From the NCBI RefSeq assembly GCF_002104995.1, contig NW_024468252.1, forward strand, positions 1,178,001 to 1,242,000: DNA of 64,000 bases. The letters are read 5' to 3'. This document shows, piece by piece, positions 17,101 to 61,683 of this stretch. The notes beneath the pieces were generated by a model. That model was not told where the DNA came from. It searched no databases and saw nothing but the letters and a program-made list of their open reading frames with translations. The stretch comes from Linderina pennispora. Taxonomy: Eukaryota > Kickxellomycota > Kickxellomycetes > Kickxellales > Kickxellaceae. Made by a program: the position numbers and the translations under genes. The first letter of the stretch is position 1. Each line of letters starts with the position of its first letter.

Positions 17101-20100
17101 TCCGCTATGCATGTAGGCAAGGCACTGCTGCTATCTGCACCAAAGCAAACACAGCAGTCGCCGACGGATGGTGATGACGAGGTCAGGGTTGTGCAGTTGA
17201 CAGCGGCAGATGCGGCCACAGTACGGCGCAAGCAGTCGTCGATGGACGCCTGGCTGTCCAAAGTCCAAGGCGATGGGCAACTCGGGGACACTGACTGGGG
17301 GCAAGGCGACGCTAGCAAAGAAAGAGCCCAAGAAGAGCGGGGGCAAGGCAGGCGGCGGGCTGCTGAGCATGATGAAGAGCAGCTTTGCCAGTGAGCGCAA
17401 GAGCCTGATGCTCAGCAGCACCCGCAGTCGCCAGGCAGCGTCGGTAGTGCCGAAGCAGCACGTCAAGGCGCCGAGATCCATGTCCACGGTTCCAGTCAGC
17501 AAGTGGGACAGTCGGCGCAATATGGATGCGGAGGAAGAGGATGATGGTGCGCCCCTTGCCCGAGCTCGTTGTGCGCAATGCGTCCAAGGAAGCACTACAG
17601 GAGCTCGAGCTGGCCAAGTCACGCAAGGTGACAAGCTCTGGCAGCACCATGCAGTCCAGGAGCAGCAGCCATGTAGTGCCTGGCGACAGCGATACTGACA
17701 GCTCTGACGACGACAAGGACAATGAGGAGAGCGGCGGCCTGGCCGGGTTGCTGAAGATTCACCGCACACCCACCAAGGCACCGGAGCGTCGACCGATCAA
17801 GTTCATCTCACTGGTCGACGGCCTGGGAGTGTCTGGTGGCAGTGGCCGGCCTGGGTCGATATTCTTCGATGCGCAGGCGCGGCAGCGCGCTATTAGCGAG
17901 CAGGAGGCCAAGGAGCGGACTGACGCCGAGCATGAACAGCCTGCACAAGAAGCTGCTGGCGTGGAAATACGAAGATTCAGGGGATATGCCGCCGGATGCA
18001 CGCACGACGACATACAAAACAATCCCCGACACATTCACCGACTGCGACAGCTACGCAGGGGTGTTTGAGCCACTGCTGCTGCTCGAATGCTGGGCACAGT
18101 TCCAGCGGGCCAAGGAGGAGACGGCAGCGAGCGAGCCCAGCGAAGCCACCCTGCAGTCACGGATGTGCGTGGATGAGTTCCAGGACATTACGTTCGAGAT
18201 GGCCATTGCCGACATGGATGACGTGGCAGACCATGATGTGCTGGTGCTGACAGAGAGCATGTCGCGCGAGAAGCGCTACGCCAAGGGGATCACGGCCGTT
18301 GGTCTGAGCGGGCAGATCGGCAGGCAGGGTGACGCAGGCTCGACAGCCAACCCGGCGCTCCTCAACAGGCCCACGATTCTGGGCAAGGTGCAGAGCCGCG
18401 TGTTTGGCCGCGACAACGTGCAGGTCGTGGTGCGTGTGTTTATGCAGGGGGTGCGGCTGGCGCAGTTCCTCAACAAGCTCGTGCTCAAGTCGGTGTGGGT
18501 GTTCATTAAGCTCTACGGTCTGACACCCATGCATCGCGAATACGCGGCGCTGCGCTCTCTGCCATACCTGGACAGGCAGCTGGTGCAGGAGATTCTGGTC
18601 CCGCGGCCCGTCAGGCACCAGATGCTGGGCAAGCTGGACGTCGAAAAGTGCATGCGGATGCACGCGCTGAACCAGCCGCAGGCAGAGGCCGTTGTGGCGG
18701 CTGTGAACCGCAGCAACGGGTTTACGCTGATTCAGGGACCGCCAGGGACTGGAAAGACAAAGACCATCCTGGGGCTTGCGGGCGCGTTGATCTCGCAGGC
18801 AAAGAAGCAGCTGTCTGACGACTACAAGCCGTATACGCCCGCGGGACCCGATGCTGAAGCACCGCCGACGGCGAAGAAGAACAACAAGCTGCTGATCTGT
18901 GCGCCCAGCAATGCTGCAGTGGACGAAATCGTCAAGCGCCTAAAGCAAGGGATCCGTGACGATACCGGCAAGACGTTCTTCCCAAGTGTCGTGCGTGTCG
19001 GCATGTCTGACAGCGTCAGCAGCACTGTGCGCGACACCACACTGGACTTTTTGCTCGACAAGGCTCTGAACTCGTACGGAGGCGTCAATGGCACGAAGGG
19101 GACCGCTGGAGACGAGAATGACATAAGCGCAGCCCAAGACGCTCTGCTCACCTCCGTTTCTGGCCACCGCGGCAGCGACGGCAGGGTCGTTGATATGGCG
19201 GCTCGGGCCAAAGTCGCTCGTGCATCAGCCGTCGAGACCCAGCGGTCGCTGCGCAAACGGCTTGACGACGTCAACGTGAGGCGGCGCGAGCTGGATCAGC
19301 GCATGCAGACCATCGACCCGTCCAACATGGCCGAGATGCGCGAGTTCCGCCAGAAGTTTGGCAAGCTGAACGAGGAGAAGAAGCGTGTCTGCGCACAGCT
19401 GGACTCGGAGCGCGAGCGCGGGCGCGAGGCAGCGCGTACGATTGACTCAACCAAGCACAAGATCCGGCTGCAGATCCTGCAGACCACCGACATCCTGTGC
19501 TGCACGCTGAGCGGCTCTGGCCACGACATGATGGCCAGCATCCAGTGCTCCTTCGACACCTGTCATTATCGACGAGGCTGCGCAGAGCGTCGAGCTGGCG
19601 TGCCTGATCCCGCTCAAGTACGGCTGCCAGCGGTGCATTCCTGGTCGGAGATCCGAACCAGCTGCCACCGACGGTACTGTCGCAGGCTGCGATGCAGCAC
19701 ATGTACAACCAGAGCATGTTTGTCAGGATCCAGAAGAACAGCCCCGAGTCGGTCAATCTGCTCAGCATCCAGTACCGCATGCACCCCGAGATCTCGCGGT
19801 TCCCGTCCATGCTCTTCTACGACTCCAAGCTCAAGGACGGTCCTGGGATGGCTAAGAAGCAGACTGCGCCGTGGCACGCCAGCCGCTTCTTCCCGCCATT
19901 CTGCTTCTTCAATATCCGCGAGGGTAAGGAGGAGTCGGGCAAGTCGCACTCGGTGTTCAACATGGCCGAGGCGCGCGCTGCAGTGCAGCTTGGTGCAGCA
20001 CCTGTGCATCAGCTTCCCAAGCCTTCCGATGAAGCAGACGATTGGCGTCATCACGCCGTACAAGCAGCAGAAGAGCACGCTGGTGCGCCAATTCCAGAGC

Positions 20101-21436
20101 TGCTTCGGCCAGGCTGTCACCGACGCCATCGAGTTCAACACTGTCGATGGGTTCCAAGGCCAGGAGAAGGACATTATCATCTTCTCGTGTGTGCGTGCTG
20201 GTGGCTCGGGCGTCGGATTCCTGGCTGACGAGCGGCGCATGAACGTCGGGCTGACCCGTGCGCGCAAGTCGATGTTTGTGCTGGGTAATTCCGATCTGCT
20301 GGTGGTCAGTCCGCTGTGGAGGAAGCTGATTGACGACGCCAAGCAGCGCAGCCTGCTCTTGGACTGCAAGCTGCCACTGTTTGGCCGGTATCTTGGAAAT
20401 GCAGCCACCTGCGACAATCTGACCAGGGATCCCAAGGACGCAATGGATACTGCGGCTGATGGCGAAGGCGACCGGGCAGAATTCATCCTGGAGGCGTTTA
20501 ACGATTCCGAGCTGAAGCGCGCCAACGCAGCCGCAGCCACTCCAGCGGTTCCCGCAGTCAAACAGATAGCAGCCCAGCACAGATCATCACTCGAGCCCAG
20601 CTGCAGACAGGGAGACCAAGCCATCTGCGCTGGCGTCACTGGTAGCATCTGCAAAGCGCGATGCCAGCCAGCCCGTGGCTGGCCAAGCAGTTGCCTGCAA
20701 GCAGCAACGGCCGACAGCACCGGCGCCAATGCCTGCAGCGCGCCCGCAAGTGCACCCAGGCACCGGCGATAGCTATTCCTGTCGGCGGGCATCGCCCAGT
20801 TGCTCCACCGGCAGCCCAAGCGGCCTCCCCTGTCAGCTGCGACACGGGAGCGGCAGCGCTCCAGCCTGTTTATTCCCAAGAAGCGCGGCGGAGGGGCTCA
20901 CCGCCCCGGTGCACGCCCACCGCCCACGCAGCACGATGTGGTCCAGCCAATGTCGCCGCCAGTCCAGCCGCCTGCCGGCGCTCGTCCTATTATGAGTCCT
21001 CCTGCCGCATATTGAAGCCCGCGCCTTGTCGCCTCCAAAGCGGACTCCGCCACCTCCGCCGCCCAAGAAACAGCCGACTGTCATTACGGTTGCCGAGCGC
21101 GGAAATCCTAAGGGTAGGGAGCCAGGGAAGCCACAGAGAGGCCGTAGCAGGAGCCCGAGGCGGAGCCACAGCCGGAACAGAAGCAGGGAGCGGAGCAGAG
21201 ACAGGAGCCGCAGTGATCGCCACCACCATCGCAGCAGCAGCCGCGACAGCCGCAGCAGCCGCGACAGCCGGAAGGACAAGAAGCACAAGGATGGTACAAA
21301 GCATGGGAGCTCCAAGCGTCGCCGCAAGGGCGGGCTGTTCCGGCCTAGCATTTACGAGGAGGAGCCAGCGAGAAAGCGCTCGAAGGGCAGCGATAACAGC
21401 CGCGAGGATATGATTTCGGAAATGTTCTCAAGGTAG
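14107..21436 (+). CDS. SEN1: Sen1-type RNA/DNA helicase with RS-rich C-terminus (many frame breaks)
   Basis: About 2,440 residues if the frame is resolved. Sen1 is a nuclear superfamily-1B helicase acting in non-coding transcription termination and R-loop removal. The N-terminal Sen1 helical domain starts LPEVLESLQQRRQNEADLNV, with WWCTPET and ETLHLFSLA. The helicase core (about 18.4-20.4 kb) shows motif I GPPGTGKT at 18735-18758, CAPSNAAVDEIV, motif II DEAA at 19571-19582, motif III GDPNQLPPT near 19645-19672, QYRMHPEIS, DGFQGQEKD and motif VI GLTRARKSM. A linker of coiled-coil charge (RRRELDQRMQTIDPSNMAEM) sits between Ia and II, as in Sen1/Upf1 stalks. The C-terminus has SSLFIPKKRGGG, Pro-rich sequence, then an RS domain. 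At least fifteen frame changes occur (including near 14690, 15192, 15867, 16992, 17545, 17931, 19561, 19640, 19990, 20800, 21015), almost all stepping as if one base were extra. Conserved motifs continue in every new frame, so I call it a real gene rather than a pseudogene. Confidence 0.88.
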
Positions 21437-59939: not shown

Positions 59940-59946
59940 TATAAAA
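59940..59946 (+). promoter_or_regulatory. TATA box of peptide-precursor gene 1
   Basis: TATAAAA lies 97 bases upstream of the ATG at 60037, followed by a CT-rich leader. The second peptide gene has the same word at almost the same distance (93 bases), supporting both. Confidence 0.7.
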
Positions 59947-60036: not shown

Positions 60037-60273
60037 ATGAAGTATTACATTCCTCTCCTTGCCTGTGCCGCCATTAGCGCTGCTGCACCAGCTCCTCAGA
60101 TTGAAAATGGCGGAGACTGGCTGAGACGCTCGCCTGAGAAGCGCCAGATTGAAAACAGTGGCGACTGGTTGAAGCGCCAGATCGAGAACGCCAACTGGGA
60201 ATGGCTAAAGCGCCAGATCGAGAACAGTGGCGATTGGCTGAAGCGTGATAGCCCTGTTCACCAGGAAAAGTAG
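60037..60273 (+). CDS. Secreted precursor of KR-delimited repeat peptides (QIENSGDWL type)
   Basis: 78 residues. A signal peptide MKYYIPLLACAAISAAAPAP is followed by four copies of a Gln-Ile-Glu-Asn unit, QIENGGDWL, QIENSGDWL, QIENANWEWL and QIENSGDWL, each bounded by dibasic RR or KR sites (the first after a short SPEKR spacer), and a final DSPVHQEK. This is the layout of Kex2-processed precursors: cleavage after KR would free short peptides with N-terminal Gln (able to cyclise to pyroglutamate) and a conserved Trp-Leu end (basic residues then trimmed by a Kex1-type carboxypeptidase). Alpha-factor pheromones and Kex2-processed repeat peptides of fungi share this design. The mature sequence matches none I know. 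Strong TATA box, short leader, intronless. Confidence 0.8.
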   Translation: MKYYIPLLACAAISAAAPAPQIENGGDWLRRSPEKRQIENSGDWLKRQIENANWEWLKRQIENSGDWLKRDSPVHQEK

Positions 60274-61398
60274 GTTGGCTCTACTACTCCAAACTCTCTG
60301 ATAGCTGCTGGTCTGGAGCAACCATATCCCTAATCAAAGCTCAACATTCCTTTAGTGTGACCATACCATTTTTAAGCGAATAAATATGTTACTTGTAATC
60401 GAATGGTAAAAGTTCAACATGTACCCTGGCACATCCCATGCATGCACATCTATGTTGGTCAGTTCCCAAAATTCCTACTCTTGGATGGATATTGCAACAC
60501 ACCTTTCCTGCTTCCAGCGATGTAGCCTGGGAGCTGTGTTGTAAACATGTTCGAGAAGGATCGGCGCAGATTGAGATTCCATGGTTCCTTCCAGATGGCC
60601 CCAGAGCCGATTCCTGTTAGACACAGGAACTTTGCAGGTTTGTGCTACATAATGTCACCAAGTAATTCGTGAGAAGATGTGCCCACGAACTGTGGACTGA
60701 ACCAGCAACTGGTTCCAAGCAGGATCCCAGTGTCACCTTTGCTTGCCAGCAAAGTCTTGGGGGCAGAGTGCGGCACAAAATCAGTTCAATGTGGGTCCTC
60801 TGCAATCCGTTGCACAAATCGCTGAAATCTACATACATAGCGAAACATCTGACATAAACCAGCATGGCAGCATAGGTGAGACACGGAGCCTGAGCCGATT
60901 TATACTCAAATCCACTTTACCCTTGCATATTCCCCATTTTACAGCAGGTGGCTATACAAACACTGCGGAACTTGAAGGTTGGTTTGGTGCCCAGCGTTTG
61001 TAGAATGCGATGGCTTCTTGCAAATCTCTCGAACTTTCTGCCTACTTAGGCACCCATGGTCACATAAATGCATGTCAAGTATGGACTCGCAGGCCAGTGC
61101 AGCCAGGTGATCTTGCTGCATTACTAAGCAGGTGGATCGCACATGGCTGAAGCTGGTAATTGGCACAGGCTCGGGAGCCGTTTATGTACTGTTATTGTCA
61201 ACGCTTGCTATGCCCGCCAATAGGATATGCAATGCTGGTGAGCGGATGAGATGCTTGTGGGCAATCGAAAAATGATACTCCTACCGACTCGGTGGCAAGG
61301 CTTCAAAGACCACTCCTGCTCGCTGTTCCAATGCAGATGCTGCCGAGTGCTGTTTATGTGCGGGGAATCGCTTCAACAATCCTGGAGTTCGCAGCGGG
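60274..61398. other. Spacer between the two peptide genes
   Basis: No third complete precursor is visible here, although short words resemble the flanks of both genes. The homology between the two genes includes GTTGG directly after the TAG stop, so the duplication extends slightly beyond the coding region. Frames at 60743-61003 are not supported. Confidence 0.5.
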
Positions 61399-61405
61399 TA
61401 TAAAA
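61399..61405 (+). promoter_or_regulatory. TATA box of peptide-precursor gene 2
   Basis: TATAAAA, 93 bases before the ATG at 61492, with a CT-rich leader between. Position and sequence mirror the first peptide gene. Confidence 0.7.
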
Positions 61406-61491: not shown

Positions 61492-61683
61492 ATGAAGTAT
61501 TCCATTCCTCTGCTTGCCCTCATTGCGCTTTGCGCTGCTGCTCCTGCTCCACAGGTTATCAACAATGTCGACAAGCTGAAGCGTGATAGTAACGACAACA
61601 ACCCTTGGGACAGGCGTCAGCTTAATGGTGGCAACTTGTTGGCGCACGATGTCAATAACAATAATCCTTGGGACAGGCGCTAG
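61492..61683 (+). CDS. Secreted precursor with NNNPWDRR units, paralogue of the preceding peptide gene
   Basis: 63 residues. The signal peptide MKYSIPLLALIALCAAAPAP is nearly identical at the start to that of the gene at 60037 (both begin MKY[YS]IPLLA and end AAPAPQ). The rest is QVINNVDKLKR, DSNDNNPWDRR, QLNGGNLLAHDVNNNNPWDRR, ending in the stop. Two near-repeats (NDNNPWDRR and VNNNNPWDRR) and KR/RR sites again fit proteolytic release of short peptides ending Pro-Trp-Asp before the basic pair. The body no longer resembles that of gene 1 except for a Trp near the end of the unit and dibasic borders. Function unknown; peptide signal or pheromone is plausible, antimicrobial peptide is the alternative. 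Confidence 0.7.
   Translation: MKYSIPLLALIALCAAAPAPQVINNVDKLKRDSNDNNPWDRRQLNGGNLLAHDVNNNNPWDRR

Follow-up and report, generated by a model that had tools for sequence, protein, structure and literature searches.

Probable Kex2-processed repeat peptide precursors in the early-diverging fungus Linderina pennispora

In the yeast alpha-factor precursor, a dipeptide spacer stands between KR and each peptide unit. A broader class, the Kex2-processed repeat proteins (KEPs), was defined in a survey of 250 fungal proteomes (Le Marquer et al., 2019; PMC6339444), and a later one counted 7878 KEPs in 1461 strains, including 185 from 16 strains of Zoopagomycota (Umemura, 2020; PMC7329392). As given in the main texts of these surveys, a KEP has a signal peptide and three or more tandem repeats, each 8 residues or longer, between KR, KK, RK or RR (PMC7329392), units of 9–24 residues are the most abundant length class in Dikarya (PMC6339444) and the precursors of ustiloxin-type RiPPs are KEPs (PMC7329392).

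Here we describe a precursor gene (gene A) in a 64,000-nucleotide stretch of DNA, hereafter the window, from Linderina pennispora (Kickxellomycotina, Kickxellales). The taxonomy database places the Kickxellales in the phylum Kickxellomycota; presumably the Zoopagomycota of the KEP surveys include them. An initial annotation of the window had called the precursor unreported-looking. That label calls for caution, as the class to which the precursor would belong is named and surveyed, also in Zoopagomycota. Linderina is unnamed in the main texts of PMC6339444 and PMC7329392, and the QIEN unit did not come up in passages of either. The gene A protein may already be within the supplementary tables of these surveys.

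Architecture and predicted processing of gene A

From N- to C-terminus, the gene A protein reads MKYYIPLLACAAISAAAPAP, QIENGGDWL-RR, SPE-KR, QIENSGDWL-KR, QIENANWEWL-KR, QIENSGDWL-KR and DSPVHQEK (Table 1), and the initial annotation was right both in its coordinates and in describing a leader followed by four QIEN units parted by RR or KR. When the repeat criterion of Umemura (2020) is applied as written, without the published scoring script, gene A has four units of 9–10 residues with RR, KR, KR and KR. The leader is hydrophobic, both by sequence and by a hydropathy filter, and is a probable signal peptide. Frames of the window were also filtered with a crude script for a hydrophobic leader, dibasic-bounded pieces and similar pairs of pieces, which is not SignalP and which misses the paralogue gene B. 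A leader and at least three dibasic-bounded pieces were present in 13 frames, of which gene A alone also had two or more similar piece pairs, which argues that its pattern is beyond chance. The context of its TATAAA element, ACGAGTATAAA, recurs 5' of the paralogues C and D of a neighbouring inverted repeat, at −170 there.

Table 1. Coordinates of the precursor genes and associated features (window positions unless a contig or locus is given; C157 is the window's own contig)
Feature	Position	Strand	Basis or content
Gene A, probable KEP-type precursor with four QIEN..WL units (78 aa, single unbroken frame)	60037..60273	+	sequence; 97% identical second copy on contig C155; constraint
Gene A hydrophobic leader + APAP (residues 1-20), probable signal peptide and dipeptidyl-aminopeptidase-type spacer	60037..60096	+	sequence, hydropathy filter
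Gene A unit 1, QIENGGDWL + RR (residues 21-31)	60097..60129	+	sequence
Gene A unit 2, QIENSGDWL + KR (residues 37-47)	60145..60177	+	sequence
Gene A unit 3, QIENANWEWL + KR (residues 48-59)	60178..60213	+	sequence
Gene A unit 4, QIENSGDWL + KR (residues 60-70)	60214..60246	+	sequence
TATA-box-like TATAAA, starting 97 bases 5' of the gene A ATG	59940..59945	+	motif match only
AATAAA, possible polyadenylation signal of gene A, starting 106 bases past the stop	60379..60384	+	motif only
Gene B, tandem paralogue of gene A (63 aa)	61492..61683	+	E 1.8e-7 with gene A as query, 1.6e-6 reciprocally; also on C155
TATA-box-like element of gene B, starting 93 bases 5' of the ATG	61399..61404	+	motif only
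Inverted-repeat arms, outside the window	L011:1344-6387 and inverted copy C157:1275861-1280904		OPT, arrestin-like and KEP genes

If gene A is processed as its layout suggests, the precursor would enter the secretory pathway through its leader, Kex2 would cut past the KR and RR pairs, a Kex1-type carboxypeptidase would trim the basic residues and a Ste13-type aminopeptidase would remove APAP ahead of unit 1. The N-terminal glutamine would then probably cyclise to pyroglutamate, and the secreted products would be short, acidic, linear peptides of the form QIENxxxWL, 9–10 residues long. For QIENSGDWL, the computed [M+H]+ is 1061.490, and 1044.463 in the pyroglutamate form.

Homologues of two of these enzymes are encoded in the genome. 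A Kex2, for which the initial annotation had suggested looking, is represented by a single Kex2-type convertase locus with a P-domain (P_proprotein, C1:1883985, E 2.3e-26). A frame adjoining the P-domain frame carries GGTSAAAPLAAG in what, read by eye, is the catalytic part, and the P-domain frame, likewise read by eye, ends in a hydrophobic stretch and a basic tail. We take GGTSAAAPLAAG to resemble the active-site serine motif of subtilases. A Ste13-like dipeptidyl aminopeptidase is represented by a 958-aa open frame at C1:1517052 with a complete DPPIV_N match. A search of the literature for work linking Linderina with Kex2 found none.

Since ustiloxin-type RiPP precursors are themselves KEPs (PMC7329392, main text) and each QIEN unit holds at least one tryptophan, the precursor might instead give rise to a further modified, RiPP-like toxin or defence peptide, cross-linked at tryptophan, for example. 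This is very unlikely in our view. UstYa (DUF3328) had no match in the genome at E <= 1, which is consistent with a linear product; the negative is weak, because none of the 14 control genomes matched either, these being well-known prokaryotes as far as named, with no fungal control, in a search that reads exon by exon. C157:1241462-1289560 holds 102 frames of 120 codons or more; among 20 of these picked for Pfam, an M20 peptidase and a zinc dehydrogenase were recognised but no peptide-modifying oxidase.

Paralogues, a congeneric relative and constraint on the coding sequence

Six-frame searches of the genome revealed four related genes within 39 kb of C157, namely A (starting at 1238037), B (1239492), C (1255457-1255768, minus strand) and D (1276479-1276790, plus strand). 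All four are also present, in unchanged order and orientation, on contig C155 (71,855 bases), which is collinear with C157 in blocks 92–98% identical, mostly about 97%. Given this collinearity, C155 is probably, and most simply, the other haplotype, with a segmental duplication as the alternative.

Gene B has a leader similar to that of gene A (MKYSIPLLA..AAAPAPQ), dibasic sites and the cores QVINNVDKL, DSNDNNPWD and QLNGGNLLAHDVNNNNPWD; on C155, RH replaces one of its RR pairs. Its cores are asparagine-rich, of an NNPWD type, unlike the QIEN units of gene A. On either contig the coding sequence of gene C is the same as that of gene D, and the 103-residue protein that both encode carries five QIEN/QVEN units, of which two end in TR and KH, not KR. 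Between the contigs nine residues of C/D differ, touching units 1 and 4: on C155, unit 1 has a V to A change and unit 4 reads QAESVSEHRL. Such altered units and sites in C/D and gene B indicate that not every unit or site is needed.

Two further searches added no members. An extra match of the C/D protein at C1:1927586-1927687 was taken as chance (E 0.07, internal stop), and a genome-wide codon pattern for dibasic-QIEN, which lacked CGC and CGT and so misses most true units, gave 35 matches against 27 in the reversed control. Pfam assigned genes A and B to no family at E <= 1, and gave only unrelated sub-threshold matches for C/D and their L. macrospora relative (P0001, below); a search of a plasmid collection had no match, which is uninformative for a fungus. 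Farther along C157, at 1292312-1292569, lies a small frame, rich in glycine and secreted-looking, with four cysteines close to its C-terminal end and without recognisable kinship to the KEP family.

Beyond the genome, a search of 5.8 billion proteins retrieved, apart from the proteins of the window itself, a single relative, the 109-aa hypothetical protein FBU59_001166 of L. macrospora (P0001), 58% identical to C/D over 84%. It has a similar leader, four clear units and one degenerate unit, and carries KR at the sites where C/D have TR and KH. Its QVENASEQWL is identical to that of C/D and its QIENGGWEWL is one residue off (QIENG(S/G)WEWL), whereas its remaining units and its spacers are less alike and its last unit forms the end of the protein, without KR. 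No relative outside Linderina was found at E <= 10 in this search, which needs shared 5-residue words; the search did not recover C/D either, which shows that the collection lacks short unannotated frames.

The initial annotation had suggested looking for homologues in related genomes, and had reasoned that loss of the KR-delimited units in close relatives amid conserved flanks would count against a precursor. A multi-unit precursor does exist in the congener, closest to C/D and not to gene A. Over two consecutive units, 22 of 23 residues agree between FBU59_001166 and C/D, against 4 of 11 in the next spacer, which runs contrary to the pattern of loss, for the paralogue only. The more general claim, that an early-diverging fungus has a multi-copy precursor of the Kex2 type, was borne out by the identity of the host, by this congeneric homologue and by the encoded Kex2- and Ste13-type proteases.

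The coding sequences bear signs of constraint. Within gene A, the two identical QIENSGDWLKR units differ at five codons, all five synonymously, and over the conserved ends in every pair among nine units there are 86 silent against 37 replacement codon differences, although in most C/D unit pairs replacement changes outnumber silent ones. Between C157 and C155, differences affect 4 of 237 coding sites in gene A and 4 of 192 in gene B, compared with 115 of 2515 sites in the flanks, counted outside genes A and B and the acyl-CoA dehydrogenase frame; the lower coding divergence gave p = 0.019 for gene A alone and p = 0.004 when pooled with gene B (one-sided Fisher test). The amino-acid changes in gene A are R30K, which keeps the dibasic site, and D71N in the tail, with none in the unit cores. 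Rough dN/dS values between the contigs, each based on few changes, were about 0.24 for gene A, 0.09 for gene B, 0.49 for C/D and 0.21 for one OPT gene lying partly in the same repeat as C/D; the acyl-CoA dehydrogenase gene had no replacement changes.

A short ORF such as this might in principle be a chance or low-complexity non-coding repeat that mimics a precursor. The silent-only differences between identical units, the occurrence of related precursors of three kinds, alike in their leaders, and the congeneric homologue in L. macrospora make this exceedingly improbable, and the persistence of the frames in paralogues and in a second species refutes it as far as sequence can. The KEP-type family of Linderina is real and constrained. 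Gene A itself very probably encodes a KEP that is processed as such, a reading that draws on its architecture, the four genes on both contigs, the L. macrospora relative, the silent-only unit differences, the lower coding divergence and the Kex2 and Ste13 homologues. Counted against it were the altered sites and units, the replacement-rich C/D pairs and the lack of a detected relative outside Linderina, of a dipeptide spacer and of a detected Ste2 or Ste3.

The C/D genes bear on the direction in which the peptides act. Their dN/dS, higher than that of the OPT gene, the differences between contigs in two of their five units and the restriction of the family to the genus, as far as searched, would suit antimicrobial peptides or host-directed effectors acting outward and not as self-signals. 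We consider this quite unlikely, given that the peptides are very short and that the unit cores of gene A are unchanged between contigs. The predicted QIEN/QVEN peptides are also small and acidic, with a computed charge of about −1.2 to −2.2, which speaks against a cationic membrane-active peptide.

The inverted repeat holding genes C and D

An inverted repeat harbours genes C and D in its arms, which measure 5,044 bases each, are 99.76% identical and enclose a spacer of 19,473 bases. The arms are nearly identical within a contig, and the same arm differs by about 2–5% between contigs (500-column blocks, indels aside), a pattern that gene conversion would produce. On the view that C155 is the other haplotype, the repeat is older than the separation of the haplotypes, and its two arms have since become homogenised, in the manner of gene conversion. 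Just outside the arm, where the two OPT frames have their 5' ends, identity falls to about 60%.

In and between the arms, Pfam recognised an OPT transporter, an arrestin, a SAM decarboxylase, a mitochondrial carrier, COG2 and F-box/LRR. Of the remaining frames examined, four drew no match and one drew a sub-threshold match only. The arrestin-like gene matches DL89DRAFT_256608 (100% over 65% of the query); the five proteins listed for this query, from the 8000 most word-sharing candidates and with the query's first third unmatched, include none from L. macrospora. Because the OPT and arrestin genes share the repeat arm with the C/D precursor, re-import of the peptides by the linked transporter was considered. 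The OPT family is large here, with 46 matched pieces spread over many loci, so the linkage may be chance and was given no weight. An inverted repeat with a spacer recalls yeast-type inversion cassettes. A mating-type inversion locus at the 5-kb repeat found no support, there being no HMG-box match there and the spacer having the same orientation on both contigs.

Other features of this region were noted in passing. The arrestin frame is split in one C157 arm (1276912-1278832) and the OPT frame in one C155 arm (19488-21427), with single-base length differences between arms that may be assembly error or decay of one copy. A 144-base tandem repeat lies inside a 1073-codon open frame without Pfam match (L012:3876-5180), and alignment offsets suggest that C157 is longer there than C155 by about 720 bases (five units).

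Receptor searches, possible role and comparison with known systems

The peptides could be sexual pheromones of the alpha-factor type, sensed by a Ste2-class GPCR. The precursor design and the processing enzymes are as in alpha-factor, several family members would release slightly different products, and a linear product is expected from the missing UstYa match. The receptor searches lend this no support. The genome gave a single Ste2 match, below threshold (21.7 bits against a cut-off of 27.2), at C208:36275-36667, and this candidate proved to be an amino-acid transporter (Aa_trans 212.8 bits, 8.7e-63); there was no genome match for Ste3. Both negatives are weak, since for both receptors, as for UstYa, 0 of the 14 control genomes matched and exons are read one at a time. 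The transporter frame, through its sub-threshold match to the Pfam STE2 model, is a trap for receptor searches in its own right. We found no literature on Ste2-type receptors in Zoopagomycota, and in PMC10386755 pheromones figure only in the reference list.

The genomic setting likewise offers little to a mating role of this kind. Among 32 HMG-box matches in the genome, one is on C157, about 1 Mb from gene A, and none is on C155, so a connection with a mating-type locus is not apparent. The four genes occur on both haplotype-like contigs, and thus no mating-type-limited presence is seen either. We therefore regard alpha-factor-type pheromones as unlikely. Of the alpha-factor likeness claimed by the initial annotation, the architecture and probable processing stand, whereas a pheromone role through an alpha-factor-type receptor is so far unsupported, and the Ste2-like GPCR it had suggested seeking did not come to light in the search.

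Our preferred reading is a wider one, of which the pheromone is a special case: the gene A products are most likely secreted signalling peptides, linear and acidic and perhaps capped by pyroglutamate. That they serve as signals at all is, we think, somewhat more likely than not. The signal would most likely be intraspecific, whether developmental, mating or self-sensing, and its receptor would not be a recognisable Ste2 or Ste3. A more specific and speculative proposal, which we put forward as a doubtful one, is that genus-specific, duplicated linear peptides (QIENxxxWL from A and C/D, NNPWD-type from B) serve as mating or density signals through a non-Ste2/Ste3 receptor, with two of the genes kept identical by gene conversion between the inverted-repeat arms. 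If true, it would mean a peptide pheromone system in Kickxellomycotina. To the initial annotation the present analysis adds a four-gene family, a congeneric relative, constraint on gene A, two processing enzymes and a homogenised inverted repeat, and the exact predicted peptides and masses, together with the paralogues and the congeneric relative, make the question of a signal directly testable.

Compared with known systems, gene A has the same layout as the precursors of ustiloxin-type RiPPs, but the L. pennispora genome gave no UstYa/DUF3328 match. Like the yeast alpha-factor precursor, it carries tandem peptides predicted to be excised by Kex2, in a genome with a Ste13-like enzyme. It differs in having no long pro-region and no Pfam MF_alpha or MF_alpha_N match, in the lack of a detected Ste2 and in the absence of the XA/XP dipeptide spacer: units 2–4 start with Q right after KR, although APAP stands ahead of unit 1 and SP opens the short piece past the first RR. 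The QIEN peptide sequence itself is presumably unrelated to alpha-factor. Its family is seen here only in Linderina, whereas KEPs of Zoopagomycota are known as a group, and it is with KEPs that gene A shares a leader, near-identical units bounded by KR or RR and the 9–24-residue unit class.
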